From Agelas oroides (Eukaryota; Porifera; Demospongiae; Agelasida; Agelasidae): DNA of 64,000 bases. Under the pieces are notes generated by a model. The model saw nothing but the letters and a program-made list of their open reading frames with translations. It was not told the origin of the DNA and did no database searches. Both the position numbers and the translations under genes were made by a program. Location: the NCBI GenBank assembly GCA_949130485.1, contig OX422183.1, forward strand, positions 23,357,702 to 23,421,701, given 5' to 3'. Every line of letters starts with the position of its first letter. Position 1 is the stretch's first letter. Of the stretch, positions 33,297 through 53,479 are shown piece after piece.

Positions 33297-36202
33297 CTAA
33301 GCAGTGTTATCTATAGTATGATAGATAGGGTAGTTCTGCATTGGAATTTCCTCGTAGTGTGGACGTTGCTCCTCTTGTTGACATACAGCAGCCATGTGTT
33401 GTGCAACTTTACTCTCCTTTTTGAGTGTTTTCTTCCTCAGCATGATGACACAGAAACAGATAGCAACTAGCAATAAGACACAGCTAAAAGCACCAACTCC
33501 AAATATGAGGGCAGTGATAACATTGCTAATAGTATTAAGGGGAATTAACTCATCACCCATTGATCCTGAAGTGCCTGTATGGAAAAGAGAAAGAATGAGG
33601 GTTGAGTACACTTCGGAATGAGTCAATATTCATGAACAAATAAACCTCACTTTTAGGAGTTGCCAGATAATCTTCACAGACTAATGATAGAACAGCTGCA
33701 GAGAATAGGAAAGTGATGGCAGTACAAGTAAGATAAGGAATCATAGTCAATCACTCTCAGAAACCATTACAAGATAAGCAAACTTCGATACTGGCTTGCA
33801 GTGTGTTCATAAGATCATATTTATGTCTCACCAAGCTGAACTGATGCATTGTTTCTGCTTGGCCCAACATCACTCAAACCTGACACTGTGATGGTGTAGA
33901 CTGCACCTGAAGGTACACTGTCCACAGTGTATGAGGTGTTCAGTACAGGAAGCTCAATGGTGCTGGTATTGTCAAAAACATGATACTGAAGGAGGTATCC
34001 AGTCAGTGGAGCAGCAAGTGGGGTGGAAAGAGGAGGCTGTAGAAGAAATTATTATAAGTGTAGATTCATGAAAAGTTGATGAAACTTGTTCAAAGCAGTC
34101 AGCGCTGTGTCTTGTATTTTCTTACTTGCCCTATTGCTTGCAAATGTGGTCTGGTATTTTCACTACACGCAGTTTTCTATAACAATGACTTTTGTGTATA
34201 TGCAAATTTAGCTTAAATTTTCAATACCACTGACGTTGTAGATAACATTTCTTTGACCCCTACAATATTATTATAAACAATTATTCAAAGCTGTAAACAA
34301 TACAGTGACCATAAAAGTATTATCTTATCAGTTAGTGTTTGCTATTGTTTTCTACAGTATTTATCTGATAATTGTAAGTGTTTGCTATTGTTTTCTACAG
34401 TATTTATCCGATAATTGTAAGTGTTTGCTATTGTTTTCTACAGTATTTATCTGATAATTGTAAGTGTTTGCTATTGTTTTCTCCACGCAAATGCAATTCT
34501 TATCTATCATATGCTTACCTGCCACTCAATTTGGATTTCATACCCTTTCCTGCATTGTATCACTGCACTGAGATTTGTTGGAGGATGAGGTTCTAGAAAA
34601 TTAAGGGCAAGAGACAATCGGCTAATAGTCTTGCATGGACAAACTTGTATAGGTAATTGGGTTGACATCTACATTAGAATGGTGTGTAGTTTTGTGAACT
34701 AAGGTGAATGTTGTTGACAAGTGGCCTCGAACTATTGCATTAAGTCTGAGAATATTTTCAGCACTGCTGAGCATTATAGCATGCAATATCACATTTTAAC
34801 CCACCTTGCAGTTCATTGAAGTTCAAAGTTAACTTAAGACCAATTTGACCACGAAGAAGGTTGGCAGTGACACAGTACATATACTCCTGAAATGGTATCA
34901 GTTGTAATCCAGTAAAATGAAATGAGTGGCTACTTCCAGGGATTTGTTCTTCCCACTGTGATCCATTTGGGCCAGCAATCTGAATATTGTAGTTTCTGAT
35001 GCAGTGGTGTCCATCGGTCGGGGTAACCTTCCAGTCCAGTTGAACAGTTGAATTTGGTTTTGGAACTACAGTGAAGTTTTCTAGAGCAACATCTGGTGGA
35101 GAGTTTGTGCATGTGTGAAAACAATGCAGAATGTTTCTGAAATGCAATTCAGGGTCGGCATAAGCTATAGCTAACATAAGTCTGCACTAAATAACATTCT
35201 AGTATCATCCTAGCTGGGAAATGCTCCAGATGTGCAGGCTTCTTCGCATGTTGGCCAATTTAAAACTTCACTCAAACCGTCCGTCAACACACTTCTCAAC
35301 TTCAGTACCCTCCTCTGTTCCATGCATGTATACATATATCAGCTACATTAAGAGGATACACTCACTCATAATGTGCAGTGAAAGTGATCGATTGGAGCTT
35401 CTGTCTCTACTTGTGCATGTAACTGTGGTTCCATTGCGTGAGGCAGTTGCACGAAAGCTCAGAGAGGAAACCAAGCAACTCTGGTTTCTGTCATAGCTCA
35501 CAATTTCTGCTCTGAACTCTCCCCCGGAGCGGGGACTTGTGTAGTGCATGGTCTTCTCTCCAAATGCTTCATTTCCCCAGAAAACAGCAGTAGTTTGAGC
35601 AGTGCATGTGAAGGTGACTTCCTCTGAGGAGCAAGCATTTCTTCCAGAGATACTGCTAGTCAATACCAGACCTGTTCAAGAATATAAGCATGCATACACA
35701 GCAAATTGTAAATCATTCTTCCATGCTTGTCAATCTGACCTGACCTAAGAAATGAATATCAGCACAGCATAAATGGTATTGTGATGCATTTATCAAGCAG
35801 TCCACTAGCGTTTTGATTATTACTCTGTGCACAATCTTAATTTAGCTGTAAAACATTGACAGATATAGCTAGCACCTAAATTGACTCAGAGAGACAAGCA
35901 TTTCTTCCAGCGATACTGCTTGTCAGTCTTACTTGACCTAAGAGAATATCAGTGCGACAGGCGTACGTACCTATGCGTGTGATGCATAGCACATCTACTA
36001 TTGTCTTAGTAGACTCTATGCTGATTAATCATGCTAAATCTATGTTTTGTAAGTTTACGTATAGTTTGATACAACTACTATAGACATAAACAAGAGACAT
36101 GACACAATTACCTGTACAGCCATTGGCTTTTCTTGGCACAGACATAATGCAGAGTAACACCAACACTGCTGCAGCAAGACAGCTGAGTATTTGTGGAATC
36201 AT
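33297..36202 (-). CDS. receptor D: signal-Ig-FN3-FN3-TM with ITAM-like tail
   Basis: Seven exons on the minus strand: 36112-36202, 35366-35671, 34805-35092, 34519-34592, 33832-34036, 33651-33680 and 33297-33574. All are GT-AG with matching phases and give 1272 nt (423 aa). Domains: signal (1-30, MIPQILSCLAAAVLVLLCIM); Ig-like (31-132, with FTC, an FWG tryptophan and TVTC); FN3 (133-228, with VQLDWKVTP and a final YMYCVTANL strand); FN3 over two exons (229-321, IQIEWQ, then VYTITVSGLSDVGPS); very short stalk (VCEDYLATPK); transmembrane helix about 348-376 (TALIFGVGAFSCVLLLVAIC); basic stop RKKTLKK. The tail ends with YEEIPMQNYPIYHTI (Tyr405, Tyr416), which fits YxxI-x7-YxxI. Surface receptor with SH2-docking tail is inferred from these motifs. 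Confidence 0.9.
34334..34490 (+). repeat. 43-bp intronic minisatellite
   Basis: About four copies of a unit containing GTGTTTGCTATTGTTTTCTA and TTTATCTGATAATTG, just downstream of the donor of the first half-FN3 exon of gene D. Gene G has a single copy at the equivalent place (about 50360-50410). Confidence 0.9.
35882..35945 (-). pseudogene. 64-bp duplicate of Ig exon start
   Basis: The minus strand reads SSIAGRNACL-type sequence (TGACAAGCAGTATCGCTGGA) preceded by an acceptor-like TTAG. It copies the start of the gene D Ig exon inside its first intron and is cut after about 60 bp. Confidence 0.7.
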
Positions 36203-37131
36203 CGTTTCGACTGTTACTCACCGCTCAGGCAGGAAAGTAGAAAACTCTTGGCTCGCTCCAAGTTAATCGGCAATATGCCTAGAATAGTTATACAGTTACG
36301 TCATAGCCTACGATACACAACCCACAAGAGTTCAGGGGCTCCCTTTATTCGATCTGCAAAGTACATGACACGAAAGATGCGACTATGACGGGCCAGGCAA
36401 CTGATTTGTGGCAATTATTTTGTGTTTCTGTTACTGTAGAGAGATTATCTGTCCCCCGATGCATGCCAAAGTAGTTGAAAGTAATAACTTTTACGCAGCA
36501 AATATTCATACTATAGCCTGAGCCTATAGCCTTTGATCAGACCGAAACTGATTAACGTGGCTGAGGCGCCGATTGAAGTAACTAGTTTGCATGAGGTGGA
36601 GTCTGAATTTTGCAACCACGGTTGTAATAGCTCTTCACAGTGTTATACACTAATGACCTGAAACACTCAACTATATTAATTCCAGAAGAACACCAACACC
36701 AACTTATGGAAGCCAGTAAGGTTCAAGGGTTCAAAAGGCTCTTCTGACGGATTCTGAGGTGAGCAGAGATGGCAAGAGACTATACCCTCCTCTGATCTGG
36801 TTTGCCTACAGACTCAAGGAGTTGCAAGTTCATACCTGCTTCCACACTGGTTTCCATCAACCAGTGAATCCTGTTCTTCCACAGAGTTGTTGGTGAATGA
36901 AAGTTTCAATCCTGAAAAAAGTGCACCGCGGCACTAACCAATAATACCCACTCAGATTGGATCTCCAAGCCTTTTTTCCGGCCACCCATTTTTTAATGCT
37001 CTTGTATGGCTGTTAATTTGCTCCCTATTCTACACAACTTATTTAGCATCTTGGCATAATCATGTTTGCATAACAACCTATTTATTCATTCCTAAGTACA
37101 CTCAGCCCTCACTCTACACCCTTTCACACAG
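36203..37131. other. intergenic region between divergent D and E
   Basis: Upstream of gene D. No DR1 site is visible here, unlike C and G. A plus frame at 36191-36388 overlaps the start of D and is unlikely to be real. Confidence 0.4.
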
Positions 37132-37719
37132 ACACTTCAGAATCAACAGAATCAGATTCAAGACCCTTAGTTACGTCCCCTTAATACTATTACTACTGTC
37201 ATCACTGCCATCACATTTGGAGTGGCAACTTTTACCTTTATTTTATTGCTTGCTGCTATCTGTTTTTGTGTCATCATGCTCAGGAAGAGAACACTCACAA
37301 AGGAGAGCATGCATGACTGCTGTTTCTAAACAAGAGGAGCAAGGTCCATGCTATGAGGAAATTCCTTTGAAAGGTCCACGCTATGAGGAAATTCCTTTGA
37401 AAGGTCCACATTATGAGGAAATTCCTTTGAAAGGTCCACACTATGAGGAAATTCCTTTGAAAGGTCCACATTATGAGGAAATTCCTTTGAAAGGTCCACA
37501 CTATGAGGAAATTCCTTTGAAAGGTCCACGCTATGAGGAAATTCCTTTGAAAGGTCCACACTATGAGGAAATTCCTTTGAAAGGTCCACGCTATGAGGAA
37601 ATTCCTTTGAAAGGTCCAAACTTTGAGGAGATTTCTTTGAAAGGTCCAAACTATGAGGAGATTTCTTTGAAAGTCCTCATTATGAGGAACTTCCAATGCA
37701 GAATTACCCTCATTATTAG
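37132..37719 (+). pseudogene. receptor E: TM/tail exon copy with 11 YEEI units
   Basis: Starts at an acceptor (CACACAG|ACACTTC) like the transmembrane exons of F and G and reads NTITTVITAITFGVATFTFI, then RKRTLTKES. An 11-nt deletion relative to F after the basic stop shifts frame to a stop, while the tail continues open in another frame (MTAVSKQEEQ) into the YEEI array. A further 1-nt loss after the array shifts the final PHYEELPMQNYPHY. No upstream exons exist on this strand. It is an inverted, broken duplicate that preserves a large array. Confidence 0.85.
37343..37672 (+). repeat. 11 x 30-bp coding array, GPxYEEIPLK
   Basis: Eleven complete units of GGTCCA-YRC-TATGAGGAAA-type sequence, each encoding GP(H/R/C/N)(Y/F)EEI(P/S)LK. 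The third base of the variable codon and the last two units (GPNFEEISLK, GPNYEEISLK) differ. The same unit occurs once in D, twice in F and three times in G. Confidence 0.95.
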
Positions 37720-39670
37720 TAAAAGATATTGCTTAGGTCATATATATCAAAGAGCACTCCAGAATCATTTATCATTCAGTTCTGAAATCCATAAGTAGCA
37801 GTAAGCATGCAGCTGTTTATGTTGTACAAGATTGTGTGGTGTGTAACTGTACTGAAATCTCTTGGTTTAAAACCCCACCTCTTCATGTCATCACGAACAT
37901 AATTTGCTCACCTAGTAGGTATAGCCACGTTGTATGTGTGACATGGTAGACATTTAGATTACAGTGCCTAGTGATGCAAATGTGTTCATTAGTAACTGTT
38001 GTACACTCAATCAGAATTGGTGCCAAACCAGTACATGTGTCAATACATAACATGAATTGCAAATGAAAAGGCCAGGATTATGTTTGCCTTAGAATGCTTA
38101 CTGCTCCTGGGAGAGCATAAAAGTGGTCAATTTAACAACATGCATCTAACTTGCACACAAATGAAGTATGATTGCATGCACCCTCATTAAATTAGTGAAC
38201 ATTTAGATGCATCTAGTTGCAGTTGTCCCATTTTACACACTTGTGGTTAAAGAAAATTAAATTGGGTGATTGGGTGATGGTGGCAATCTAGCTGAAAAAC
38301 TCTTGAATGTACAAAATAAAAGTTAAATCAAACAACAGTTAGTAAACCATCTAGGAGCATTTCATCCTATTTGACAATAATCAAAAACTTTTTGTAGAGA
38401 AACACATGTGCGCTTCTGATTTTTTGCCCCACTGTTTTGCATGTGAACCAGAAACCTTCCAAGAACCACCCATACTGTTGAAGAGAGGAAGATACACATT
38501 CACCTGCTGGAGGTGTATATATTCTAGTGGCACTGCATGAGACTGGTTGCCATCTTTGTTCAGTCTCCACACAAATGCTTAGATCAGGAAAAGAAGCAAG
38601 CGTAGGGGTGAAGGGGGGAGGGTCAGTAATGCCCACTGTGGTCCTGGTTCACTTAGTCTACTTATAGCTACCTCTAATCCAACATTGTGATTGCAGAGTG
38701 AGGTATATTTCTGGTCAAGGGTTCACTAGAACTGCAGTTGACTCCATGCAGTCCTAGTAGTCAAGATACTGTTGGATAGAAGCAGGGGCAGGAAGATGAC
38801 ACAATACTGATATAATCACATGCAATGAACCATATTGGCAATAGAGCTTGCTGAATTGCCCTTCACTAGTAGCCGCAATAATTAAAACTCTTCTGCCATA
38901 CCGTATTGTTTCTAAAACTTCAGCAGAAAAATAATAATTATGTGCACACCTTGCCGTAATAATTACAAATATATGGAGAGAGAGATTTATCAGCTGTTTC
39001 AGTACTAGCTACAAAGAGGACAAATAGGTGTTTACAAAACTAAGTTGTAATACATTATAGTCAATTGGATAGGTTCTAGCAATGTGATCGGCCAGATTAT
39101 TATCACCAGGCTAGTTCAATGTTCTGGTCAACCACCCAATGGTGAACCTTAATCTGTGCATGGTTTGAAGAAGGGACTATGAGTTCACTCTAATTAGGTC
39201 AACAACTCAAAAGTTTGTGAACAACATTTTTGGAACCTATTTCTCATCCTCCATTGTACTCCATTTGTGTGTTGTGGCTTATTTCATTTTGAGTTTGGTT
39301 TTTAATACGTAGTACTTATATAACACTAAGTAGTCACAGTTCTATATATTTGGGTTCATGTCCAATGTTACATTTTCTGGAGTTCGGATTTACCCATAAG
39401 TTTAACAATATAACAACAAATGCAAACCACAAAATTTTAGTAGGTGTCTCATAATAGGTACCATCTCTCATAATAGCTACACTTAGGTGTATGACAAAAG
39501 TAATAGCTAACTCTATACAGTGAGACAGAACAATATGTTTTTACCACTAAATACCATAGGCACATGACTTTAAACTAAAATCAAACACTGACAGCCACTA
39601 CTTTTCTCCAGTCAATTAAACATGTTTGTGTCTTATAACTGGGGGGTATACCCTACACCCTATTAATTCG
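37720..39670. other. long stretch without recognised gene
   Basis: AT-rich. A minus frame at 38367-38636 (with LASFPDLSICVETEQRWQPV) has no splice or family support. Confidence 0.4.
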
Positions 39671-39685
39671 TACACCCCCCTTTTC

Positions 39686-39750
39686 CGGGAAAAAAAAAAA
39701 GCCAAAAAAAAACAAAAAAAAACAAAAAAAAAAACAAAAAAAAAAAACAG
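39686..39750 (+). repeat. A-rich (A)nC microsatellite
   Basis: Runs of 7-12 A separated by single C or GCC; possibly the poly-A side of a retroposed or foldback sequence. Confidence 0.85.
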
Positions 39751-39989
39751 TAATTTACGTATTCTAATTTATTCGTAGACGTAAAAATGATATTATTATT
39801 CTATTGTTCGCGGAAGCGCGCGTTTGAACACAAGCACTCTGAGTTGATGCAAGTATGGTGAGAGCGTTTTCAACGTCCACAAATGCGAATGAACACGTTC
39901 TTTTGTGAAGCCTCGCGAGACTAACGTTCGGCGAATGCTGTACAGCATGCTGTAAGTTCATTCTTCGATGTCGGCTTAGAGGTCTTCGT

Positions 39990-40455
39990 GCAGTCAAGTT
40001 GTGGAGCCTCTTCAAGTTGCTCTCCCCAGCGTAGGCATATCAGAGAGACGGTAGACTCTCTATGTAGGGATGGCGCCGACGTGCAATATATGCAATACTT
40101 AAGCAAAAGCCGTATAACTTCACCACAAACACGCTAAAAGTTATTTAAGCGCCCAGGCTTCCTCTTTGAGTGCCTTTGTGATCAGCAAGACTCATCTAGT
40201 TGCCCAAACGCCACGCGGAAGACAGCTAAACGCAAAAGTGTGCGGTAGTAAAAGTGCCATTTTTCTTCTTTCTTTGTCAAACAACGATAACTCGAAAACG
40301 GCTCAAGTACTCACCTTGATTTTAGCACGAAACCGATGCTCATCACAGCGCGCAGCTTCCCAACCACTCAGCGTCTTCATAGCTTCAAATTTACCCTCAA
40401 AAAAGCTGTTCACAGCACTGCCCCGACTGCTGTCCGTTGCGTAGGACGCCAATTT
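39990..40455 (-). pseudogene. first-exon segment, copy 1 (interrupted by LINE)
   Basis: Reverse-complement relative of 47958-48400. The minus strand is open through FEAMKTLSGWEAARCDEH, then RFRAKIK and donor AAG|GTGAGT, but the start codon has become TTG before GCGTCCTAC. The other copy keeps ATGGCGTCC but has TAA in place of TAC. The ancestral exon therefore began MASYATDSS. The gene family is not recognised. Confidence 0.65.
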
Positions 40456-40908
40456 GAGGTGGCCTGTTGGCAGTTTGTCCTCTGGCCCCAGCTTTACCTA
40501 CATGAGCGGTGATGTGCGAACAACAGTTGATGATGTTGAGGCTACCTCTCTGATGTCAGGTTGTCGTATTCTCTCTATGGATGACCTCAATACCTCTGAT
40601 CATCTTCCTTTGTTTGTGGGTATGGTGTATGCACCTGTCAGGAGGATCATATGGAGGGTGCAGTGTTTCAGAGGATTGACCGGGACCAAGCTAGGCGATC
40701 TGGAGAAATGGTTGATTATACGAATACAGTTAAGAGTCACCTAGTTCCACTCCTCAACACCAGTCATGAGAGTGTACAGGACATTGATCAGGAGCTGAAA
40801 TATGTAGCAAGGGTGCTATGTGATGCCGCATGCTGAGAAAACTCTTCCTCTTATTCAACCCATGCAGAAGGCCACGGAGATGGAAGGATAATACTCTGAC
40901 TGCCTTAT

Positions 40909-42984
40909 GTGCACAGAGCAGATCAGCTCATAGAGCATGGAAGGATGCAGGCTGTCCATCTGAAGGATCTCTCTCTGATGGAAGTATGGGCTCACCACTT
41001 CAGTAACCTGGGCAAGTCGAAGGTGGGTGAATCTCCTGGGCTGCAGGAGTTACAACAGACAGTGGATGCCTTGGCTATGCAGTCACTGGATATGGAGGAG
41101 CATCTTCTGGATGCTTCTTTCACTGCTGAAGAAGTGGGTTTTGCCGTCAGGAAACTGAAGAGAAGGAAGGCCCCTGGGCCTGATAATCTGATGGCTGAGC
41201 ATCTGATTGAGGGGGGTGATGTTGTTACCACATGGCTGACTGGTATCTTGAATGCAGTTGTCAATCTTGAGTCGGTGCCAGATAGCCTGAAGCGGGGAGT
41301 GGTCGTTCCGGTCTACAAAGGGAGTGGAAAAGATCTTCTGCTTGTGGAAAGTTACAGAGGTGTGACCTTGTCCTCAGTGGTGACCAAGGTGTTGGAATTC
41401 TTGGTTCTTGAGAGACTTCACATAGTATTCCTGGAAGCATCCATTCCCCACCCCAACCAGTCAGCGTACAGAAAGAGGGTGTCCTGTGGTGATGCAATCT
41501 TTGCCACCCAGGAGGTCATTGGCAGGTATTTGTGGGGTGGTAGCCAGGTCTTCATGTGCCTATACGATTTGCAAAGAGCGTTTGACTCGGTTGAGTACCC
41601 AGTGTTGTTACAGAGGTTATATGAGGTGGGAGTGAATGGGAAGTGTTGGCGGCTCATGAAGAGTTGGTATGAGGGAGCCACTTGTCAGGTGAAGGTGGAT
41701 GATGGGATGTTGTCTGAGCCATACCCAATACAGAGAGGTGTCAAACAGGGATCAGTTCTCTCTCCTGCTCTTTTCTTGCTTGTCATGGACCCCTTGCTGA
41801 GGGTGGTTGAACAGTCTGGGCTCGGTCTCTCTGTAAACAACTTCTATGCGGGGGGGTTCATACATGCCGACGATATCAGGACCCTTGCCACAAGTACAGG
41901 CTCAGTGGAGGGGCAGGTGAAGATGGTAAAGGATTTTGCTGCCCACAACTTCCTCAAGCTAAATGTTCAGAAGTGTGAAATTGTGATGTTCAGTCATGGT
42001 TGTGGTGCTGGCGTGATCCCTCAGTGCGAGGTTGATGGTTCTGAAATCCCAGTCAGGAATGCAGCCAAGTGTTTAGGGTACTGGTGGAGAGGAGACATGG
42101 TGGCCTCGCCATCAGTGGAGGAGAATATTAGGAGGGCACGCAAGTCTTTCTTCCACTATGGAAGTCTGGGTGCTTTTCAGGGAGAACTGAGCCCCCTTTC
42201 AACAAGATCCATCATTGAGACATGTGTCATGCCTATTCTTCTCTTTGGCAGTGAGAACTGGATTGTCTCTGGAGGCATTCTTGAGCAGCTTGAGAGCTTT
42301 CTAGGGGAACTTGCAAAGAGAGCTCTGAAATGGCCCAGACACTTTTCAAACACAGCGGCTATGACTGTCCTGGATCTAGAATCTGTAACATCTAGGATAG
42401 TGGTGCGGAAGCTCGGGTTCTTGAAGAGGCAGCTGGCTGTGGGTGCCGTGGGTGTTGCAGCCGTGGCGATGAGGTCACTCCTGGATGATCCTAACTCTCT
42501 TTGTCTAGTTGGTGAATGTAGAGAGCTGGAGGAACACTTTGGAACCAACTATACTGATACTATTCTGGAAGGAGGTGATGAAGTAAGTATGCAGGAGGTG
42601 AAGAGAGTGGTAAAGCAAGCGGACAGGGTGAGCAAATTGGAGAAATGCAGAGAGAGAGCCCCTCTTATAGTTGAGGTTGTGGATAATGGAGGGAGCTGGG
42701 CCAGACTTTGGGATTCTGCACTACATCTGGGTACACGGCATACAGATGGGCTCAAGGCCCTCTCAAGGATGCTGGCACATCATGGTCATGGATCAAAGCC
42801 GTGTCCTCTTTGTGACGAGAACAACCTTGCTCCCAACCCCATCGGACACCTTTTGAGAGTGCATCAGCATGAAATTGGCTTGGACAGAACCCCTTTAGAC
42901 TCAGTGGACCAGCTATTGACACAGATAGCGGACTGTAATATCCAGTTTTTGTATAAGTTTAGGAAGCTTTTCCTACCGTTCTGA
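40909..42984 (+). CDS. LINE reverse transcriptase, 691-aa open frame
   Basis: RT blocks in order: RKAPGPDNLMAEHL, a VVVPVYKG and SYRGVTLSSVVTKVLE block, catalytic DLQRAFDSVEYP, RGVKQGSVLSPALF, FIHADD (motif C with H before ADD instead of the usual Y), and FLKLNVQKCE. The C-terminus carries CPLCDENN with a later HLLRVHQHE, a zinc-knuckle-like CCHH group. The first ATG shown is internal: upstream coding with WKDNTLTALCAQS continues in a different frame, so frameshifts near 40650, 40836 and 40960 break the full endonuclease-RT protein. The RT itself has no stop and may be recent. Confidence 0.85.
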   Translation: MHRADQLIEHGRMQAVHLKDLSLMEVWAHHFSNLGKSKVGESPGLQELQQTVDALAMQSLDMEEHLLDASFTAEEVGFAVRKLKRRKAPGPDNLMAEHLIEGGDVVTTWLTGILNAVVNLESVPDSLKRGVVVPVYKGSGKDLLLVESYRGVTLSSVVTKVLEFLVLERLHIVFLEASIPHPNQSAYRKRVSCGDAIFATQEVIGRYLWGGSQVFMCLYDLQRAFDSVEYPVLLQRLYEVGVNGKCWRLMKSWYEGATCQVKVDDGMLSEPYPIQRGVKQGSVLSPALFLLVMDPLLRVVEQSGLGLSVNNFYAGGFIHADDIRTLATSTGSVEGQVKMVKDFAAHNFLKLNVQKCEIVMFSHGCGAGVIPQCEVDGSEIPVRNAAKCLGYWWRGDMVASPSVEENIRRARKSFFHYGSLGAFQGELSPLSTRSIIETCVMPILLFGSENWIVSGGILEQLESFLGELAKRALKWPRHFSNTAAMTVLDLESVTSRIVVRKLGFLKRQLAVGAVGVAAVAMRSLLDDPNSLCLVGECRELEEHFGTNYTDTILEGGDEVSMQEVKRVVKQADRVSKLEKCRERAPLIVEVVDNGGSWARLWDSALHLGTRHTDGLKALSRMLAHHGHGSKPCPLCDENNLAPNPIGHLLRVHQHEIGLDRTPLDSVDQLLTQIADCNIQFLYKFRKLFLPF

Positions 42985-43027
42985 GTCTTTTATATGTACA
43001 CTGTCGTGCCCCTTGTAGGGCTTTATC

Positions 43028-43097
43028 GATGAACCTTGAACCTTGGACCTTGAACCTTGGACCTTGAACCTTGAACCTTGAAACTTGAACCTTGAAC
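43028..43097 (+). repeat. LINE 3' tail repeat
   Basis: Tandem GAACCTTG/GACCTTG units, about nine, directly after the LINE 3' untranslated region. Confidence 0.85.
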
Positions 43098-43382
43098 CTC
43101 GTTCCCAGACCGAAAACCACGGTCATTGATCTGGGAACGAGACTAGTGCTCACACGAAATCGCGCGCGTTGACTGTAGAGTGTAGTGCAGGCTGGCACGG
43201 TCTATTCCCGTGGTTGTGGGAAAGGCTTATGGACACTACGTAGGTAAGGAGCTGTATTCAGTTGCTTACTTATAGCTACACTATAAATACAGCTTTAGGT
43301 AACGCCTGGATGGTCAGTTTTATGCTCTGTCGGTACAGTTATCTGTACTGGTCAGTTGTCATGTGATCGTAAATTGTATTAA
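43098..43382 (-). repeat. segment homologous to 47640-47940 (inverted)
   Basis: Contains an AGTCTCGTTCCCAGATCAAT hairpin and, on the minus strand, ACCGTGCCAGCC and CCATAAGCC blocks matching 47.8 kb. Together with 39990-40455 it is one inverted duplicate split by the LINE. Confidence 0.75.
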
Positions 43383-44945
43383 CGTGGCGGGGGAAGTCAC
43401 TCGGCGGAGGTTACGAAAACATATACCTGGGTTACAGTCAGGACCAGTGTTGCTCCTAGTTTCAGGGTTAGGGTTTGGTTTAGGGCAATCTTGCGTTGCC
43501 TAATTTTAAAAATGGGTTTTAGACTAGTAGCTTATTGCGGAGCGCATTAGCGCGAGGCTCTGAATGAGGGATCTATTCTCGCAATGTACGTGCGTACGTA
43601 CGTACGTACGTACGTACGTGTCGGTCACGCTTAGGAATGTCAATTTGCGGTATCGCTTAGGAATGTCAATTTGAGGTTACGCCCGGAATGTCAATTTGCG
43701 CTCACGCCCAGGCAGGATATCGGATACGTGCATTACACGACGAAGTCGGGACGACGTTTCTTGCCGACGAACGACGGGGAGGACAGCGCGACTAGCCCTT
43801 CGCAACGTACGTATTTGCGGAGCGAAGTGCATAAACGAGTGCTGAACGCAGCCGACGGCTGCCGACTCTGAGAAAAAAAAAACAAAGAAGTCAGCCCACC
43901 GTAGAAAGCCAAGAGAGCGACAGAAGAACAAGAAAGAGTTCAAAAGTAGAAATCACGTATTGGAGATTGTTTACAAGCAAGGTATTTAGGCTCACTCTTC
44001 ACGTTACCGTTGTTTTGTACTGTTCTTTGGACTCACACTAAACGAGCGACGCCTGACACCTGCGCCGCACGCCCCATCCGCGCATGCCGCTTGGAGCGGC
44101 GCGAGGCATCATACGCATGCGTAGTCCTAGTTAATATATTCATGAGCCAAAATTGCCACTCGATGGATGCATCCACATGCTCACTGTAGGTAGCGTCCTA
44201 ACCACCAATGTATCTCAAATCATTCTGTGCCAGCTATTGTTCAGAGCTACTCCCAAAGTCAGGCTAGACTCATGTTTGTCACTACTCCTGGAATGGACAA
44301 CTTTGAAAATGAATGCACATTTCAAAAAATTCACAGCTTGTCTACGGGAGGGGCTCATTCACGAGTGCAAGCAAGCATTACTAGCCCCACCTCTCCCCCT
44401 TATGTCGCTAAACAACTCACAGCTCTGTTCCACACACAAACACCGTTCAGCTTTCCTGTCAATGGCAACGTAGTACTAACGATATATTGCGCATTCTAGT
44501 TAAAGCCCAGCCCAGCACTCGAAGCACCGGGCCTGCCCAATGAGTACAGTCTTGGCCACTGTGGCCTTTCTGCTGCTTCTAGACACAAGCTTGCTTTCAC
44601 AAGCAGGCACTTCACGCTACTCACAGCTACTGACACTACAGCACTCTACTAAACTCCTTCTTTTTTTTTTGTTTGTTTTTTTTTTGTTTGTTTTTTTAAG
44701 TCAATCTAAGCTTATCTTCAAAGTTCTGACCACCACGTGAGGGGTTCCGCCAGGCCACATCTTAACTAACTTAATTATAAACTGATTATTGGATGTCAAT
44801 GCCGACAGGAAATGGGGAAATTTTACGGACTGTGAACGGATGAACTCACAAAACTGACTGTGCGCTAAAAGTTTGCAAAGACAAAGAATTCTATCAGCTT
44901 GGATTCCAGGTTGTTGACCTTGAAAACACAGGGTTCCCTGCCACC
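43383..44945 (+). mobile_element. TTAA-flanked element, copy 5, with internal insertion
   Basis: Begins CGTGGCGGGG after TTAA (43379-43382) and ends CCCTGCCACC before TTAA (44946-44949). Sequence from about 43535 to 44130 is absent from the other copies and is therefore a nested insertion. T-rich run at 44660-44697. Confidence 0.85.
43535..44130. mobile_element. nested GC-rich insertion with ACGT array
   Basis: Inserted in copy 5 near its GGTTTTAG block. Contains an (ACGT)n run at 43585-43620 and three tandem GGAATGTCAATTTGCG-type units (43630-43700). The rest is GC-rich and ends near GCATGCGTAGTCCTAG. Termini are uncertain. Confidence 0.6.
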
Positions 44946-45024
44946 TTAAAGGAAATTGGCTTCACAAAGGGGTCAAAATCTGGTACAGAGAGTTATTAGC
45001 CCTCCATCGGATTCCAGCTGGCAT

Positions 45025-45286
45025 ATTACATGCTTGAAACCACTGCTAAGCTGTCTGATTCAAGTTCTAGGGTTGTGATTACACTTGAACAAATCTTCTT
45101 AGGCTTAGGTCTAACTGTAACTGAGATTAGCATCAAAAAAGTACAGAAACAAGAAATAAAAAACATTAAAAAGATGTAGGGATGGCATGCCAAAAAGTCA
45201 AACAAGGTAGGGATGATAGCATAAAAGCAAAGGTCAACATAAAGGCAATGCCCCATCCCTACATCTTTTTCACACTGCAGTTAGAC
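45025..45286 (-). repeat. GATGTAGGGATGG dispersed repeat, copy 1
   Basis: Minus-strand start GTGTGAAAAAGATGTAGG. Related copies at 45678 and 47365. Internally CCATCCCTACATCTTTTT and AAGATGTAGGGATGG form inverted repeats about 100 bp apart. Family unknown. Confidence 0.75.
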
Positions 45287-45677
45287 AGCATGCTTGAAAC
45301 CTAAACCTGCACCCATCCGTGGAGTTAGTGCTGTAAATGAGCACCGACCACTTGAGTTTTTAAACACTATACAGCACTTACTCCTGCAGCTCACTTCAGC
45401 TCAGTGTCTAGGTTGTATAAGCGGTCCCATATAGTGTACAATATTAAATGCCAACAATTAAGGGTTCCACCGTTACTACAAGTAGCATGTCAGCACCAAA
45501 AGCTACCTGGTCGCTACATGCATAGCTTCCGACAAGGCACATACCCCATGCTGCTAGACTACACTGCAATCTGGACCCCAGACCCCAGGCTATGTGGGAG
45601 GAGGAAAGTGGCCTGAGAACAAGGCTACAGCTATGCCCTCCAAGAACTGCCAGTAAGGTTGTGGTACGTTATAACTG
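45287..45677. other. no gene recognised
   Basis: A degenerate TAGCCTCG-like palindrome may lie near 45588-45625. Nothing else assignable. Confidence 0.35.
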
Positions 45678-45790
45678 CAGTGTGAAAAAGATGTAGGGAT
45701 GGGACATTGCCTTTATGCTATCATCCCTACCTTGTTTGTATACTTTTTGGCACACCATCCCTACATCTTTTTAATGTTTTTTTCTTATTT
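45678..45790 (+). repeat. GATGTAGGGATGG dispersed repeat, copy 2
   Basis: Starts GTGTGAAAAAGATGTAGG and contains CCTACCTTGTTTGTATAC and CCATCCCTACATCTTTTT, as in the other copies. Confidence 0.8.
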
Positions 45791-46220
45791 CTTTATATAT
45801 ACGTATGCACGTAGATTGAAGCCAAAGTTGCTTGTTACTAGTTGTTATACATAATGAAGCTGAAGAAGTGCCTGCTGATCGGTTTCCTTCGTGTCGAAAA
45901 CTTCCACGCGTTTTTCTTCTATTCATTCGTACACCTGCAGGTGACTACAGTGACCAAAGTATTGTTTCGACACCTGCATCTTATCCATTACCTCCTCCAA
46001 GTATAAAAAAGATGCTTTTTTTCAGGTACAAGAGAGACAGTACTGTAACATAGTGTATGTCTGTATAGTGTTATTGATGACACTATAATACTATAGAAAA
46101 GGTTTCCAAACCAATAGGTTGCTGTACAGTTATCAACTCATGCACACTCTTGTACAACATAAAGTGCTAGTATCGAATTTCAGAACTAAACAATAACATG
46201 ACTCTGAGCTTGTCTTTGAA

Positions 46221-47147
46221 TCAAGCAGGAGGTTCTAGAGTATGATAGACATGGTAGTTCTGCACTGGAATTTCCTCATAGTGTGGACCTCTCAAAGAAA
46301 TTTCCTCATAGCGTGGACCTTGCCCCTCTTGTTTAGAAACAGCAGTCATGTGTTGCAAAACTTTACTCTCCTTTTTGAGTGTCCTCTTCCTGAGCATGAT
46401 GACACAGAAACAGATACCAGTAAGCAATAAAATACAGGTAAAAGCCCCAACTCCAGATGAGATGGCAGTGATAACAGTAGTAATAGTATTAAGTGGACTA
46501 GACCCATCATCCACTGATTCTGTTGATTCGGAAGTGTCTGGATGGAAGAAAGGTAGAAGAGGTCTGAGGGCACCTCACTTAGTAATGAAAAACTAGTGTT
46601 ATATTTATACTCCCAGCAAATGAAACTCACTTTGAGTTGCCACTGAACTTTGAGTTGCCACTGAACTTTGAGTTGCTACTGAACTTTGAGTTGCTACTGA
46701 ACTTTGAGTTGCTACTGAACTTTGAGTTTGTACTGAACTTTGAGTTTGTACTGAACTTTGAGTTTGTACTGAACTTTGAGTTTGTACTGAACTTTGAGTT
46801 TGTACTGAACTTTGAGTTTGTACTGAACTTTGAGTTTGTACTGAACTTTGAGTTGCCACTGAACTTTGAGTTTGTACTGAACTTTGAGTTTGTACTGAAC
46901 TTTGAGTTGCTACTGAACTTTGAGTTTGTACTGAACTTTGAGTTTGTACTGAACTTTGAGTTGCTACTGAACTTTGAGTTGCCACTGAACTTTGAGTTTG
47001 TACTGAACTTTGAGTTGCTACTGAACTTTGAGTTTGTACTGAACTTTGAGTTTGTACTGAACTTTGAGTTGCCACTGAACTTTGAGTTGCTACTGAACTT
47101 TGAGTTTGTACTGAACTTTGAGTTGCCACTGAACTTTGAGTTGCCAG
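46221..47147 (-). pseudogene. receptor F: stalk and TM/tail exons only
   Basis: Terminal exon 46221-46537 is intact (acceptor CATCCAG, DDGSSPLNTITTVITAIS, FTCILLLTGICFCVIML, RKRTLKK) with tail RYEEISLRGPHYEEIPVQ then YHVYHTLEPPA. The stalk exon runs from 46631 to about 47147 with a good donor, but the acceptor ATTAG seen in G has become ATCACC. No Ig, FN3 or signal exon lies upstream; homology to G ends near 47256. It is a 3' partial duplicate, though its last exon could still be used as an alternative end for gene G transcripts. Confidence 0.8.
46632..47142 (-). repeat. 18-bp stalk array, about 28 SSV(A/Q)TQ units
   Basis: Tandem GCAACTCAAAGTTCAGTA-type units encoding SSVATQ or SSVQTQ on the minus strand. 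The mixed A/Q variants are not seen in gene G, which has only SSVATQ. Rich in Ser and Thr, as in mucin-like stalks. Confidence 0.95.
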
Positions 47148-47283
47148 AGAACCTTCACAGGGTGATGATGGAACAGCTTCATGTAGAGAGTAGGAAAGTA
47201 ATGTTGGTACAAGTAAGATAAGGAACCATTAACAGAAACCATAACAACACTATAGTTGTTATAGTTGTATATGGCATGGTTCT

Positions 47284-47336
47284 AGCCTCGTCCCCAGGCG
47301 ATTTTCTTCTCCCACATGCCGGCTCATAACGAGGCT
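47284..47336. mobile_element. degenerate TAGCCTCG-family palindrome
   Basis: TAGCCTCGTCCCCAGGC at the left and AACGAGGCTA at the right. No clear target duplication remains. Confidence 0.5.
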
Positions 47337-47364
47337 AATGTGATCTAGCAGCATTGCATCAGCC

Positions 47365-47560
47365 GTAGTGTGAAAAAGATGTAGGGATGGGGCTTTGCCA
47401 ATATGTTGACCTTTGCTTTCATGCATTATCCCTATCTTGTTTGCCTACTTTTTGGCATGCCATCCCTACATCTTTTTACATTTTTAATGTTTTTTAAGTC
47501 TTGTTTCTGTACTTTTTTGATGTTAATCTCAGTTACAGTTAGACCAAGTGTAACCGGAAC
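47365..47560 (+). repeat. GATGTAGGGATGG dispersed repeat, copy 3
   Basis: Same start as copy 2, extended on the right with TTTTTTGATGTTAATCTCAG and TTACAGTTAGACC, matching copy 1. Confidence 0.8.
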
Positions 47561-47639
47561 ACCAGAACTTTTGAACTATGTGTAATATAGCAGCTAGAAC
47601 CTGATGAAAGGCCAACCACTCTCCCTACCAAACTTTGTG

Positions 47640-47957
47640 AAACCAATTTCATGATTCAGTTGTCATGACGACTGACCAGCTGCAGCACAGAAAACTATCA
47701 TACTGACAACTGACCATCCTAGCTTTACAGTTCACTAAAGCTGTGAGTAGGCTATTTTAATGTAGCTACGAGTAGGTAGCGCCTTACCTACGTGGTGTTC
47801 ATAAGCCTAGCCCAATGCCGCGGAGGGGAAAGACCGTGCCAGCCACGCGTACTGCCCGCTGGCCATTTCGCTTGTGTACTAGTCTCGCTTCCAGACCAAT
47901 GACCGTGGTCTTTGGTCTGGGAACGAGACTTCGTGTACGCATGCGTACAAAATTAGA
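47640..47957 (+). repeat. segment homologous to inverted 43098-43382
   Basis: Includes a hairpin AGTCTCG...CGAGACT at 47880-47930 around ACCGTGGTC. It is the uninterrupted counterpart of the LINE-split copy. Confidence 0.75.
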
Positions 47958-48400
47958 AAATGGCGTCCTAAGCAACGGACAGCAGCCTCAGAGTGTTGTG
48001 AATGGCTTTTGTTGACCAGGGTGAATTTGAAGCTATGAAGTCGCTGAGTGGTTGGGAAGCTGCGCGCTGTGATGAGCATCCGTTTCGTGCTAAAATCAAG
48101 GTGAGTGCTTGAACCGTTTTTGAGTTATCGTTGTTGAACAAAAGTCGTAACGAAGAAAGAAGAAGAAAGAAGAAAGAATACGAAAAATGGCACTTTTGCA
48201 ACCGCACACTTTTGCGTTTAGTCGTCTTCCGCGTGGCTTTTGGGCAACTATATCAGTCTTGCTGATCACAAAGGCACTCAAAGAGGACGTCTGGGCGCTT
48301 AAATAAGCTTTTAGCGTGTTTGTGGTGAAGTTATACGGCTTTTGCTGCATATATTGCGCGTCGGCGCCATCCCTACATAGAGAGTCTACCGACTCTCTGA
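47958..48400 (+). pseudogene. first-exon segment, copy 2 (empty LINE site)
   Basis: ATGGCGTCCTAA: a stop replaces the TAC codon of the sister copy. A second in-frame ATG gives MAFVDQGEFEAMKSLSGWEA, ARCDEHPFRAKIK and donor AAG|GTGAGT. The downstream intron-like sequence is shared with 39990-40330. Parent gene unknown. Confidence 0.6.
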
Positions 48401-48838
48401 TACTGTGTGCTTCAAAACTACCCTAGGTTATCATTTTGTTGTCAGTTTATGTAGCATACAATACACCTGGGAGTGTACTAAACTGTAACAATTTACTGTA
48501 TATATCTGCAACCACTGATGAGTGAAGCCAATGTGAATTTCACCTGAAATAGGTGTAAATTCGTTCCTACCCAGCAAGAAGTGTGTTAACAACATTGAAT
48601 GTTGGTTCACATTAACAACTGCAGGTGACTACTAATCCATTACCTCCAGTATAAAAAATATGCAGGTACAAGAGAGACGGTACTGTAACATAGTGTATGT
48701 CTGTATAGTGTTATTGATGACACCAGACAAGGTTCCCAAACCAATAGGTTGGTGTACAGTTATCAACTCACACTCTTGTATAACATAAAGTGCTAATATC
48801 AAATTTCAGAACTGAACAATAACATGATTGTCTTTGAA
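48401..48838. other. 3' flank of gene G
   Basis: 48640-48838 is closely related to the 3' flanks of F (45990-46220) and partly of D (33090-33296), so these three loci share duplicated downstream sequence (TAGTGTATGTCTGTATAGTG). Confidence 0.6.
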
Positions 48839-51800
48839 TCAAGCAGGAGGTTCTAGAGTATGATAGACATGGTAGTTCTGCACTGGAATTTCCTCATAGT
48901 GTGGACCTTTCAAAGAAATTTCCTCATAGTGTGGACCTTTCAAAGAAATTTCTTCGTAGTGTGGACGTTGCTTCTCTTGTTGAGAAACAGCAGTCATGTG
49001 TTGCGAAACTTTACTCTCCTTTTTAGGCGTCCTCTTCCTGAGCATGATGACACAGAAACAGATACCAGTAAGCAATAAAACACAGCTAAAAGCCCCAACT
49101 CCAGATGAAATGGCAGTGATAACAGTAGTAATACTATCAAGTGGACTAGACCCATCATCCACTGATTCTGTTGATTCGGAAGTGTCTGTATGGAAGAAAG
49201 GTAGAAGAGGTCTGAGGGCACTTCACTTAGTAATGAAAAACTAGTGTTATATTTATACTCCCAGCAAATGAAACTCACTTTGAGTTGCCACTGAACTTTG
49301 AGTTGCCACTGAACTTTGAGTTGCTACTGAACTTTGAGTTGCTACTGAACTTTGAGTTGCTACTGAACTTTGAGTTGCTACTGAACTTTGAGTTGCTACT
49401 GAACTTTGAGTTGCTACTGAACTTTGAGTTGCTACTGAACTTTGAGTTGCTAGAGCACCTTCACAGACTAATGATGAAACAGCTGCATGGAGAGAGTAGG
49501 AAAGTAATGTTGGTACAAGTGTAAGATAAGGAACCATTAACAGAAACTATAACAACACTATAAGAACAGATTGGGTGTTTTACCCTGGTCACATGGCTTA
49601 CTTTGCTAAAACAAACAGGGAGGTAGGTTCCTTATCAGAATGAGGAGGATACTACATAGAAACTGGTTGTCTTATACAATTAGCCACTAGTACCAAAGTA
49701 AACCATGCAACCAGGGTAACCACTCTGTAGTTCAAACAAGTAGTCTGTTTTTACAGTGGATTGGTAGTTAAGCTAAATTCAATACTGGCTCACATTATGT
49801 TGATCCTACTCATGTGGTATAAATGTCTCACCAAGCTGAATAGATAGATTGTTCTTGCTTGGCCCCACATCACTCAAAGCTGACACTGTGATGTTGTAGA
49901 CTGCACCTGAAGGTACACTGTCCAGAGTGTATGAGGTGTTCAGTACGGGAAGCTCAATGGTGCTGACATTGTCATAAACATGATACTGCAGGAGGTATCC
50001 AGTCAGTGGAGCAGCAAATGGAGTGGGAAGAGGGGGCTGTAGAAGAGATAATATAATATATTATGCAGGAGGTATCCTATCACTGGAGCATCAAGTGGGT
50101 CAAGAAATGGGGCCCTTAGAAGAAATCATAAGTGCAGATTAATGAAAAGTTGGCAAAGTCATGTCTAGTTGAAAGTGGCCAGTGCTATCTCTTACATTTT
50201 CTAACTCTCGTGTAAAGTCCCTTTGCTAGCACAGCATCTTAGTACACTACAGTTTACAACTGATTTAAATTTTCAATATAAACTGTAGAGTCTTTGTTCC
50301 CTACAGTATTATCAAAGCTGTAAACAATACAGTGACCATAAAAGTATTATCTTAGTAGTTAGTGTTTGCTATTGTTTTCTCCATGTAAATACAGTATTTA
50401 TCTGTCATGTGTTTACCTGCCAGTCAATTTGGATTTCATACCCTTGCTTGCATTGTATCTCTGCACTGAGATTTGTTGGAGGATGAGGTTCTATATGAAA
50501 ATGAAACAACACATTAGCGATATAATTTCCAAACACATCAATTAAAGGAAATATTGATTCAGATCAGCCTTTCGAATAAATGCATTCAGGTCTGTGATCT
50601 ATATCTTCAGACCCCTGCTGCCACTGACTGACTTACAATGCTGGTAATTGTGCATCAACTCACCATGTAATTCAACAGTTATTGTTTGCTTGATGGGGGC
50701 AATCTGATTGTGATCAAGGTTGGCAGTGACACAACAAGTGTAGTCCTGAAGTGGTATCAGTTGTAATCCAGTAAAATGAAACGAGTGGTTATTTCCAGGG
50801 ATTTCTTCTTCCCATTGTGATCCATTTGGCCCAGAAACCTGAATGTTGTAGTTTCTGATGCAGTAGTGTCCATCTGTTGGGGTAACCTTCCACTCCAGTT
50901 GAACAGATGAGGTTGAGTCAGGAACTACTGTCAGATGCTCAAGGGTGATGTTTTCTAGAACAATATCTGGTGGAGAATTTAGCACATCAGAATGGTCCAC
51001 AATCTGTTAGCACCTAAGCATCATATTGTCTAATCAAACAAAACAGAACAAACAATTGGTGGCTAGCTAGGGGGCAATTTGGTTTATCTTTGTCAGATTA
51101 TCTGAATTGAAGTTGTGAAAAAGAAGTTGACTTGTACTTTAACGGCAGGATATGGTACTGAGTATCAGAGCAAGCAGCTGTTTCAACAGAGATAGGTTTC
51201 CAACAAGAAAACCGCTCAAACGGTACAAGTAGGAAGGCTTATCTTGCCTTCGTTTTACACTTACCTTATTAAAACCCATGATGCACAACAAATTAGAATT
51301 TATGGGTGGATCCAATTTAGTGCAATACCAGGAAAGAAGCCTCTCAGTTGTCCCAGTCAGTTTATTTTGTGACAACAAAGGGCTGTCAAGAACAATTTCG
51401 AGGAGAAAGAGCTATCCCATAAATGTTCTACTTTGAAACTTTCTGTTGCTGCAGCTGCTACTGTCTATCAAGCCCTCACTTCTGGACAAGACTGGAAAAT
51501 GAAGGCCAGGGAACTCTTTGCATTTCTGTTTTGACCCAAAAATACTTTGTTCCGTTTGAATCCATTTAATGCAAGAGATTCAATTCCTGAAATTTATGGA
51601 TGCATGGATGATTATCCAACCTCTTACACGCCACTTAGGATAGCAATCATTACAAGCAACTACCGCGACATACCCGAGGTTTATGCAAGCATGGCACAAT
51701 AAAGACTGCTACACCCAGTTTGCATACAATTGTAAGCCAGTTTTATCACATTGAGAAGATTTTCAAATTAAATATAGGCCCTAAAGAGTTCATTAATGGC

Positions 51801-53479
51801 CATTCAGCAGGCATGTTCATGAGAACCAGTCAACTAAACTTAGGTAAACTGAGGTTGATGTGACTTCTATGACCATGGATGTGCTCAATATAAGTATAGT
51901 TCAGGCATTTTTTAGACGGGTGTCTCTAATCGCTGGAATGGAATATGGAATGGAATGGTGGAATGGAAAATGGAACGGAACTGTGAATATACATAGTTAC
52001 AGCTAACTCGTGTAACTGACGCTGCTCAGTCTAGATTGAGCTAGCTACTATGTGTCTAGGGCTCTTATCTCACCGTGCAGAGGCTGTATGAGCAAGTCCA
52101 GTGCATGTTAGCAGCATTCTTCCTTGTCTGGTATCACGGTCAGAACTCGGAGTCCCCGGAGACCAGCTACAGTGCCATACATAGGAGTCACGCTTACTAC
52201 TGTGTAAAGGAAGGCTGCTACTAAGGTTGTGTGACCGAGGATTGAGGTGCACAGACAAGACTGAAGCGAAGAAACTGAGGATCGAGCACTAATTTCTGCC
52301 ATCAAGCACATTCAAGTTTGTCTACGAAGACTATAACTATGGTCTTGCGAAGCCAGACCCTTGTTTTTCATTCGAGAGTCAGGCTTGCAAGACTAGAATA
52401 ACAAAGCATCTGATGATGAGCCAGCAACGGTACCATGCTAGGATAATGAAGCATGACGGTGGGCAATGCTGTACTTGTTCATAAAGCTTCTGCAGTGAGA
52501 TAACAGCCCTGGAGATAAACTAGGTAGTTCAACCGTCAGTTACATGAGTTAGCTGTAACTATGTACTTTCACTGTTCCATTCCATTTTCCATTCCACCGT
52601 TCCATTTCATATTCCATTCCAGCGATTAGAGACGCCCTGTTTTAGACAGTGAGTTTGCATGAACACACATTATCATCTTCATTCACTGTGTGTTGCTACA
52701 CCTACATCTGAATCCTATGAAACTATATATATGCAATGCATGTGGCCAATATACTTGAACTTTCATATACTATTCTTGGATAAAATTTAGAGGAAAAGGC
52801 TTCGCCCCAAAACATCAAGGCAGCACAAGATACTCGCTTTCATAACACGTTTTCATAAGTACTTACAACTTGTCTACAGCTAAAATGCGTCTAACAGACT
52901 CACTTGACATAATGTGCAGGGAAAGTGATTGATTGGAACTTCTGTCCCTATTTGTGCATGTAACTGTGGTTTCATTGCGTGAGGCAGTTGCACGAAAGCT
53001 CAGGGAGGAAACCAAGCAACTTTGATTTCTGTCATAGCTCACAATTTCTGCTCTGAAGTCTCCCCCGGAGCGGGGACTTGTGTAGTGCATAGTCTTCTCC
53101 CCAAATGCTTCATTTCCCCAGAAAACAGCAGTAGTTTGAGCAGTGCATGTGAAGATGACTTCCTCTGAGGGACAAGCATGTCTTCCAGAGATACTGCTTG
53201 TCAAACTGACCTGATCTAAAGTATCAGTGAACAAATAATACAAGTATGCACCCATGTTATGTAGAATCTCGTCATTCCGGACTAGGCTAATACTATTAAC
53301 ATATAAAATTATAGTTACCACTAGGCTGTATATAGCCTTATAGGACAGCAAGAATAAGTAATTCACACAAAACAGCCACGATATCGTTCACCTGTACAGC
53401 CATTGGTTCCTCCTGGCATAAACGTAATGTAGAGCGATACCAACACTGCTGCAAGGCAGCTAGTCCCGTACTGAGTCAT
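48839..53479 (-). CDS. receptor G: signal-Ig-FN3-FN3-stalk-TM, three YEEI
   Basis: Seven exons on the minus strand: 53392-53479, 52904-53215, 50664-50966, 50417-50490, 49832-50036, 49279-49467 and 48839-49185. Splice sites are GT-AG, phases match and the sum is 1518 nt (505 aa). Domains: signal (1-29); Ig-like (30-133, VIFTCTAQTTAVFWGNEAF ... TVTC); FN3 (134-234); FN3 (235-327); a Ser/Thr stalk with nine SSVATQ repeats (about 331-388); transmembrane helix about 410-437 (FSCVLLLTGICFCVIML); basic stop. The tail has Tyr467, 477 and 487 in YEEI units and Tyr498 in YHTL: YEEI-x6-YEEI-x6-YEEI-x7-YHTL. The 1.9-kb intron after the Ig exon contains a hAT-like MITE. A DR1 site lies 28 bp upstream of the start codon. 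Activating immune-type or adhesion receptor is inferred. Confidence 0.92.
49280..49450 (-). repeat. 18-bp stalk array, nine SSVATQ units
   Basis: In-frame tandem repeat in the gene G stalk exon, uniform in sequence. Gene D has no repeat in the orthologous 30-nt exon. Confidence 0.95.
49580..49719. mobile_element. 140-bp MITE, TTACCCTGGT ends
   Basis: TTACCCTGGTCACATGGCTT at the left and the inverted AACCATGCAACCAGGGTAA at the right give about 26 bp of terminal repeat. It lies in the intron between stalk and FN3 exons of gene G. Confidence 0.7.
50060..50122 (-). pseudogene. 63-bp duplicate of FN3 exon start
   Basis: Repeats GCAGGAGGTATCC and the flanking bases of the beginning of exon 49832-50036, with substitutions that destroy the reading frame. 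Confidence 0.65.
51918..52639. mobile_element. 722-bp hAT-like MITE in gene G intron
   Basis: Long inverted ends of about 100 bp share TCTCTAATCGCTGGAATGGA and later ATAGTTACAGCTAACTC. Flanks TTTTAGAC (51910-51917, 52640-52647) are an 8-bp direct repeat. The right terminus reads CAGGGCG inward, as in hAT; the left has lost two bases. No transposase. Confidence 0.8.

Follow-up and report, generated by a model that had tools for sequence, protein, structure and literature searches.

The signalling of allorecognition receptors through immunoreceptor tyrosine-based activation motifs (ITAMs) and inhibition motifs (ITIMs) has been traced from cnidarians to mammals, and candidate proteins of sponges are called unrelated in the same source (PMC12065747). 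Here we analyse a window of 64,000 nucleotides (positions 23357702-23421701 of contig C1 of a 259-Mb sponge genome), which holds the genes labelled D, E, F and G, together with the related genes H, I and J, which are located on C1 outside the window. D, G and H are intact predicted genes, whose products would combine one immunoglobulin (Ig) domain and two fibronectin type III (FN3) domains with a tail of tandem tyrosine units. We consider it somewhat probable (roughly 0.55) that they encode type I receptors with ITAM-like phosphotyrosine docking tails.

The Alr complex of Hydractinia comprises 41 members of the Ig superfamily (PMC11999971) and Alr candidates carry ITAM or ITIM motifs (PMC12065747). 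The sponge locus resembles this system in that many Ig-superfamily genes with such motifs are found in one complex of an early-branching animal. However, the sponge ectodomain consists of one Ig and two FN3 domains and the tyrosine units occur in tandem; the two systems are compared by description, the sponge set being known from genes alone. FcoR proteins of Botryllus possess ITIM, hemITAM or core YxxI/L/V motifs and are described beside Src and Syk signalling genes (PMC12065747). Tyrosine motifs on Ig-superfamily receptors and a genome with Src and Syk genes are therefore common to both animals, but Botryllus is a tunicate, FcoR is composed of a V-type Ig, a sushi and two C2-type Ig domains, and tandem YEEI units are not described in the available part of that source. 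In the oyster protein CgIgIT2, another Ig receptor of an invertebrate, one chain likewise bears a classic ITAM (PMC11999971); the protein differs in its molluscan origin, its five Ig domains and its single ITAM.

Several ITAMs per receptor are known from the T-cell receptor, whose complex contains ten of them, three on CD3 zeta, and whose ITAM multiplicity amplifies the signal (PMC4428620). In contrast, the YEEI units of the sponge genes overlap and belong to the ectodomain-bearing chain itself. In zeta, the ITAMs form distinct motifs, and the signalling subunit that carries them has a minimal ectodomain. The occurrence of closely similar ectodomain exons on different tails, as in D and I, is at the level of sequence reminiscent of KIR-type paired receptors. 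A literature search, judged by title and beginning of the abstract, gave no ITAM-bearing sponge receptor among the matches listed. A preceding sequence-only reading of the locus had proposed a new type of activating receptor; this is too strong, since ITAM/ITIM Ig receptors of Hydractinia and Botryllus as well as the ITAM multiplicity of the T-cell receptor have been published (PMC12065747, PMC4428620).

Predicted anatomy and ectodomain of the genes

For the exon models, donor and acceptor sites were read from the sequence and signal peptides were called by eye. G comprises seven exons (53479-48839, minus strand) that join to one open frame of 510 residues, and D comprises seven exons (36202-33297, minus strand) with an open frame of 428 residues, both with gt/ag sites and matching phases. 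H (C1:23451274-23447135, minus strand) likewise has seven exons and an open frame of 446 residues. The exon order is the same in all three, namely signal peptide, Ig-fold domain, FN3 domain, a second FN3 domain spread over two exons, stalk, and finally membrane span plus tail; the membrane span contains no charged residues. The exons of G, F and D within the window, all on the minus strand, are as follows:

53392..53479, minus: G exon 1, signal peptide MTQYGTSCLAAVLVSLYITFMPGGTNGCT (by eye)
52904..53215, minus: G exon 2, Ig-fold domain (predicted fold, profile and Foldseek matches)
50664..50966, minus: G exon 3, FN3 domain 1 (Pfam)
50417..50490, minus: G exon 4, first part of FN3 domain 2 (Pfam)
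49832..50036, minus: G exon 5, remainder of FN3 domain 2 (Pfam)
49279..49482, minus: G exon 6, Ser/Thr-rich stalk with about 10 six-residue repeats (18-bp units)
48839..49185, minus: G exon 7, membrane span and tail with three YEEI and YHTL, gaps 6, 6 and 7
46631..47176, minus: F stalk exon with about 29 six-residue repeats
46221..46537, minus: F membrane span and tail with two YEEI and YHTL, gaps 6 and 7
36112..36202, minus: D exon 1, signal peptide (by eye)
35366..35671, minus: D exon 2, Ig-fold domain
34805..35092, minus: D exon 3, FN3 domain 1 (Pfam)
34519..34592, minus: D exon 4, first part of FN3 domain 2 (Pfam)
33832..34036, minus: D exon 5, remainder of FN3 domain 2 (Pfam)
33651..33695, minus: D exon 6, short stalk without repeats
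33297..33574, minus: D exon 7, membrane span and tail with one YEEI-x7-YHTI

The FN3 domains are clearly recognizable: the Pfam profile fn3 matches two stretches each in G (2.4e-16, 60.1 bits) and in D (6.7e-15, 55.5 bits), above the cut-off of 25, and both are therefore predicted FN3 proteins. The N-terminal domain of G itself has no Pfam match, and PF00047 matches weakly in seven of 15 paralogous Ig exons (best E-value 0.011). A profile search with the Ig exon gave NCAM, CD83, T-cell receptor and antibody chains among the best 60 of 142 matches (best E-value 0.0078). The best structure model of the G exon reaches a mean predicted local distance difference test score (pLDDT) of 92.4 and shows eight strands, the other four models having 92.4, 90.9, 66.2 and 40.0. 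In a Foldseek search with this model, the best 50 of 1927 matches were, by title, mostly antibody, major histocompatibility complex, T-cell receptor and KIR entries. The N-terminal domain is thus predicted to adopt the fold of the Ig superfamily.

F consists of a stalk exon and a tail exon only. As a tblastn search with the exons of G and D (E-value up to 0.5) gave no Ig or FN3 exon match at 47.3-48.8 kb, F was rejected as a complete receptor in its own right; it may represent either a partial duplicate or an alternative 3' end of G. The 18-bp repeat of the stalk (window 46629-47142 and 49277-49452) represents a second variable repeat, with about 29 units in F, about 10 in G and none in D.

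Tail motifs, their constraint and candidate kinases

Phosphorylated ITAMs, with the consensus YxxL/I-x(6-8)-YxxL/I, are bound by tandem-SH2 kinases, and pYEEI is the preferred ligand of the Src SH2 domain. As read before from the letters of the window, D, F and G carry one, two and three YEEI units, respectively, followed by a terminal YHTI or YHTL; H has two units and YHTL. The spacing of adjacent units by six residues and of the last pair by seven was also read correctly: the gap is seven in D (YEEI-x7-YHTI), six and seven in F and H, and six, six and seven in G. The tails of the intact predicted receptors D, G and H agree with the ITAM consensus, and in F the motif is present and an ectodomain of its own was not found. 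The claim of Ig/FN3 receptors with ITAM-spaced tails therefore holds for the complete predicted genes D, G and H, but neither for F nor for E, which is a relic (see below).

To place these motifs in the wider family, 85 tails were compared with 200 shuffles of the same tails. The set consists of 60 slices taken from those matches of a search with the tail of locus L033 that are free of stop codons, 22 tails from a search with the F tail, and the tails of loci L069, L070 and L071; E, J and L072, a near copy of L069, were excluded. Strict pairs YxxL/I-x6-8-YxxL/I are present in four of the 85 tails (shuffle mean 0.1, maximum 2), which are close relatives and hence not independent. If V is allowed, the number rises to 19 (shuffle mean 0.6). 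Far more widespread are Y[ED][ED][VI] sites (69 of 85 tails; shuffle mean 0.5), AY..V/I/M (63 of 85; 2.0) and N..Y (74 of 85; 11.1), and many tails combine YEE[VI] with at least one N-x-A-Y-x-P-V site. The ITIM-like pattern S/I/V/L-x-Y-x-x-L/I/V was detected in 32 of 85 tails (shuffle mean 8.7, maximum 18), and immunoreceptor tyrosine-based switch motifs (ITSMs) in six (shuffle mean 1.2), while a rough ad hoc pattern for hemITAMs (a single YxxL/I behind acidic residues) was matched by none of the 85. At least two YxxL/I/V/M/P motifs occur in 75 tails, with a smallest gap of 6-8 in 18, of 9-20 in 38 and outside both ranges in 19; four tails (L022, L028, L036, L112) have no such motif. Six tails, those of D, F, G, H and the copies K310 and K337, have a partner Y[HY]T[IL] at x7. 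These six also cluster in a midpoint-rooted tree of the membrane region, and the ITIM pattern is unmatched in all of them.

Six groups of related exons, covering 41 of the 60 slices, were used to compare nonsynonymous and synonymous differences (pN/pS) by position. The ratio is 0.15 at the motif tyrosines and their +3 residues, rises to 0.41 in the rest of the tail and reaches 0.61 in the membrane region, so that the motif positions look like the most constrained part of the tail, albeit in a sample with selection bias. Summed over the exons, pN/pS is 0.46 for G and D and 0.42 for G and H. The K337 tail lies at a synonymous distance (dS) of 0.31-0.39 from the other five tails of the D group.

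A search of the genome for Syk-type and Src-type kinases, proposed by the sequence-only reading as a check, brought up both. The gene at C12:1681001-1696000 encodes two SH2 domains along with a kinase domain that is nearest to SYK and ZAP-70. Its C-terminal SH2 domain with the preceding linker matches SYK (1.1e-38) and ZAP-70 (5e-34), followed by the Grb7 family (9.3e-17), and the joined kinase pieces match SYK (1.5e-70), ZAP-70 (4.2e-69) and FAK (3.8e-50). Both SH2 domains contain FLVR, the N-terminal one being known from translation only. One kinase exon ends with SEYYR and the next starts with AETAGRW, a junction that we take to resemble the Syk activation loop. With two SH2 domains, the linker and a Syk-type kinase domain, the gene is a predicted Syk family kinase. 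This agrees with the placement of Syk in sponges (PMC9601881, PMC2820527) and stands against its listing as emerging in vertebrates (PMC8662651); a survey of cnidarians and bilaterians reports vertebrate-like Syk only in those invertebrates that have CARD-CC/Bcl10 (PMC5978004). Three Src-like frames were recognized by eye at C17:7.506-7.515 Mb, one of which was searched and matched SRC at 7.6e-152. Part of the first exon for the N-terminal SH2 domain of the Syk-type gene is present twice in L044 (4926-6015, minus strand), with low-complexity repeats between the copies.

The superfamily on C1, gene E and the neighbourhood

The D, G and H group is, as far as sequence comparison indicates, a derived branch of a much larger receptor superfamily on C1. 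Of the 36 match rows obtained with the F tail, 35 lie on C1 and one on C10, each row being an exon or exon part and not a gene; all 33 rows obtained with the Ig exon of G lie on C1. For the L033 tail, with 150 of 180 candidates scored, there were at least 144 rows, 142 on C1 (8.2-29.4 Mb) and one each on C113 and C16. A superfamily nearly confined to C1, with ITAM-like and ITIM-like tyrosine tails, exceeds the find as originally reported. Its members are not all intact: the Ig exon of K337 has a frame break, and the signal and Ig exons of K310 were not found in the stretch examined.

Repeated units are also found in other branches. The L113 tail carries YEEV together with AYGPV three times and AYGPA once. 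An open frame of 433 residues with 42-bp and 129-bp units is present in L069, which has 20 motifs, and in its near copy L072. The 7.3 kb upstream of L069 contain no Ig or FN3 exon among the open frames of at least 60 residues on the same strand, and tblastn with the D and G exons and two distant Ig exons gave weak matches only (best E-value 0.025); L069 is therefore not shown to be part of a working receptor. L069 and L072 (C1:20.57 and 20.79 Mb) are nearly identical and lie about 218 kb apart, and L072 may be a segmental or an assembly duplicate. L070 is a case against the multiplication of tyrosine units, since the 3.2 copies of its 144-bp unit read HEEV or HEEP and not YEEV.

Ectodomain exons have probably been transferred among genes that differ in their tails. 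The synonymous distance between D and I (C1:23467936-23471577) is small for the Ig exon (dS 0.13) and the first FN3 exon (0.05), larger for the second FN3 domain (0.27) and largest for the tail (0.68; the I tail entry extends a few codons beyond its stop).

Gene E had been read as a receptor with 11 YEEI units. The 30-bp array indeed exists at this place (11.8 copies), but it encodes ten YEEI and one FEEI in a frame other than that of the membrane span, and YHTL has been lost; E was rejected as an 11-ITAM receptor. The features on its strand are:

37132..37798, plus: E, a lone broken exon for membrane span and tail, with the 30-bp array at 37341-37694
31882..31968, plus: open signal-peptide-type exon, separated from E by gene D
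32145..32237, plus: Ig exon of which just the first 31 residues are present, likewise separated from E by gene D

In phase 1, as used in D, F and G, translation from the acceptor site at position 37132 yields TSESTESDSRPLVTSP and ends after 16 residues; phase 0 stops too, and the array is reached in phase 2 only, in a frame that is also hydrophobic yet differs from the membrane span of the family. Compared with its relatives, E has gained 4 bp before the membrane span and lost 11 bp after it, 1 bp before the last unit, and 4 bp by which YHTL was deleted. All four indels are present in J (C1:23444270, plus strand), a copy with a single unit. Most simply, the exon therefore broke first and expanded 11-fold later in E; the alternative order would be a loss of units in J. 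Near E, tblastn with the D and G exons detected no FN3 exon on the plus strand. As judged from its frames, E is a relic and the 11-unit receptor an artefact of a broken exon. The proposal that unit expansion tunes the signalling strength is not supported, because the largest expansion in the window sits in this exon.

Other elements of the window include a 115-bp tandem repeat with 35.8 copies (21338-25441), followed by 10-bp arrays of the GAACCACTGG type (25621-27162). Between E and F lies an open frame of 694 residues (40900-42981, plus strand) with a reverse transcriptase domain (RVT_1, 2.7e-24), probably a retroelement. Open frames at 2210-4660 (minus strand), with a membrane span, a lysine-rich end without YEEI and an fn3 match at 0.0011, below the cut-off, may belong to another FN3-type receptor. 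That the DNA stems from an early-branching animal, as had been supposed, is borne out by silicatein-type exons, which point to a siliceous sponge: in two of six cathepsin-like exon slices (L140, L141) GASY replaces GSCW at the active site, presumably the silicatein hallmark, and the other four keep the cysteine.

Possible function and significance

The sequence itself shows the predicted gene anatomy, the frames, the motif spacing, the Ig and FN3 domains, the presence of Syk-like and Src-like genes and the constraint on the motifs. Provided that D, G and H are transcribed, clustering of the receptors by a ligand would allow Src-family kinases to phosphorylate YEEI and YHTI/L, and the last pair, YEEI-x7-YHTI/L, would then bind the SH2 domains of a Syk-type kinase as a one-chain ITAM. 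The additional YEEI units of G and H would add ITAM-spaced pairs or Src SH2 sites; unit copy number changes by tandem duplication. The output would be activating, and a role in immunity or self-recognition is conceivable.

For D, G and H, this ITAM-like reading is a reasonable one, but several observations weigh against it. Strict ITAMs are confined to one small branch of the 85 tails, so Syk binding is not the purpose of the superfamily as a whole, and a Pfam scan of the tail alone gave TMEM51 (0.002, 18.4 bits, under the cut-off of 25.5). None of the 1927 Foldseek matches of the Ig domain reaches an E-value up to 0.001 (best 0.0027; TM scores of about 0.4-0.64 in the best 50), and two of the five models are poor. 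The top match of the Syk-type kinase domain is 9p9u, labelled EGFR (2.8e-94), which does not fit the Syk ranking. As to constraint, the motif columns were taken from the consensus and a motif-bearing query had served to find the exons by homology, which biases the ratios towards constraint, and in g16, one of the six groups, pN is the same at motif (0.063) and other tail positions (0.065), no ratio being formed. The ratio dN/dS of the tails is 1.09 for F and G and 1.00 for F and H (three synonymous changes each), and 1.06 for D and K310.

The tails could also be docking arrays for Src SH2 domains or adaptors, with one SH2 domain per pYEEI, spacing being irrelevant and phosphorylation processive, as known from p130Cas, where a docked kinase phosphorylates neighbouring sites. 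The abundance of Y[ED][ED][VI] whatever the spacing, the preference of Src SH2 for pYEEI and the presence of Src-type genes fit this model. It does not predict the exact x7 of Y[HY]T[IL] in six of six D-group tails, K337 included, a point weakened by their kinship, and we regard it as unlikely. Even less probable is that the YxxL/I/V sites are primarily AP-2 sorting signals that set endocytosis, with phosphorylation being secondary: the motifs do fit the loose YxxPhi pattern and the frequent N-x-x-Y recalls NPxY-type signals, but acidic residues at +1 and +2, as present in 69 of the 85 tails, are typical of SH2 ligands and not of sorting signals.

It is somewhat unlikely, in our view, that the repeats represent neutral minisatellite noise of a family with fast birth and death, their copy number being meaningless and only a single ancestral motif being of importance. 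The 11 units of E in an exon that shares four indels with the one-unit copy J, the variable stalk repeat, the dN/dS near 1 of the F tail and the lost tyrosines of L070 would all be expected from such noise, whereas the in-frame growth of tyrosine units in L069 (42 and 129 bp) and L113 (AYGPV) and the seemingly constrained motif positions, from a biased sample, would not.

Beyond the ITAM-like reading of D, G and H, one could imagine a very large paired-receptor system on one chromosome, in which ectodomain exons are exchanged among differing tails: ITAM-like ones (YEEI-x6/7-YxxL/I) and many ITIM-like (VAYGPV) or ITSM-like (TAYGPV) ones, with unit numbers set by tandem duplication. Such a sponge-specific, independently evolved counterpart of activating and inhibitory receptor complexes is at present a doubtful proposition. 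The superfamily, almost all of which lies on one chromosome, is a candidate recognition locus of sponges. Moreover, a sponge that possesses a Syk-type gene together with intact predicted Ig receptors of ITAM spacing would make it possible to test the origin of this signalling module directly, by means of peptides and cells.

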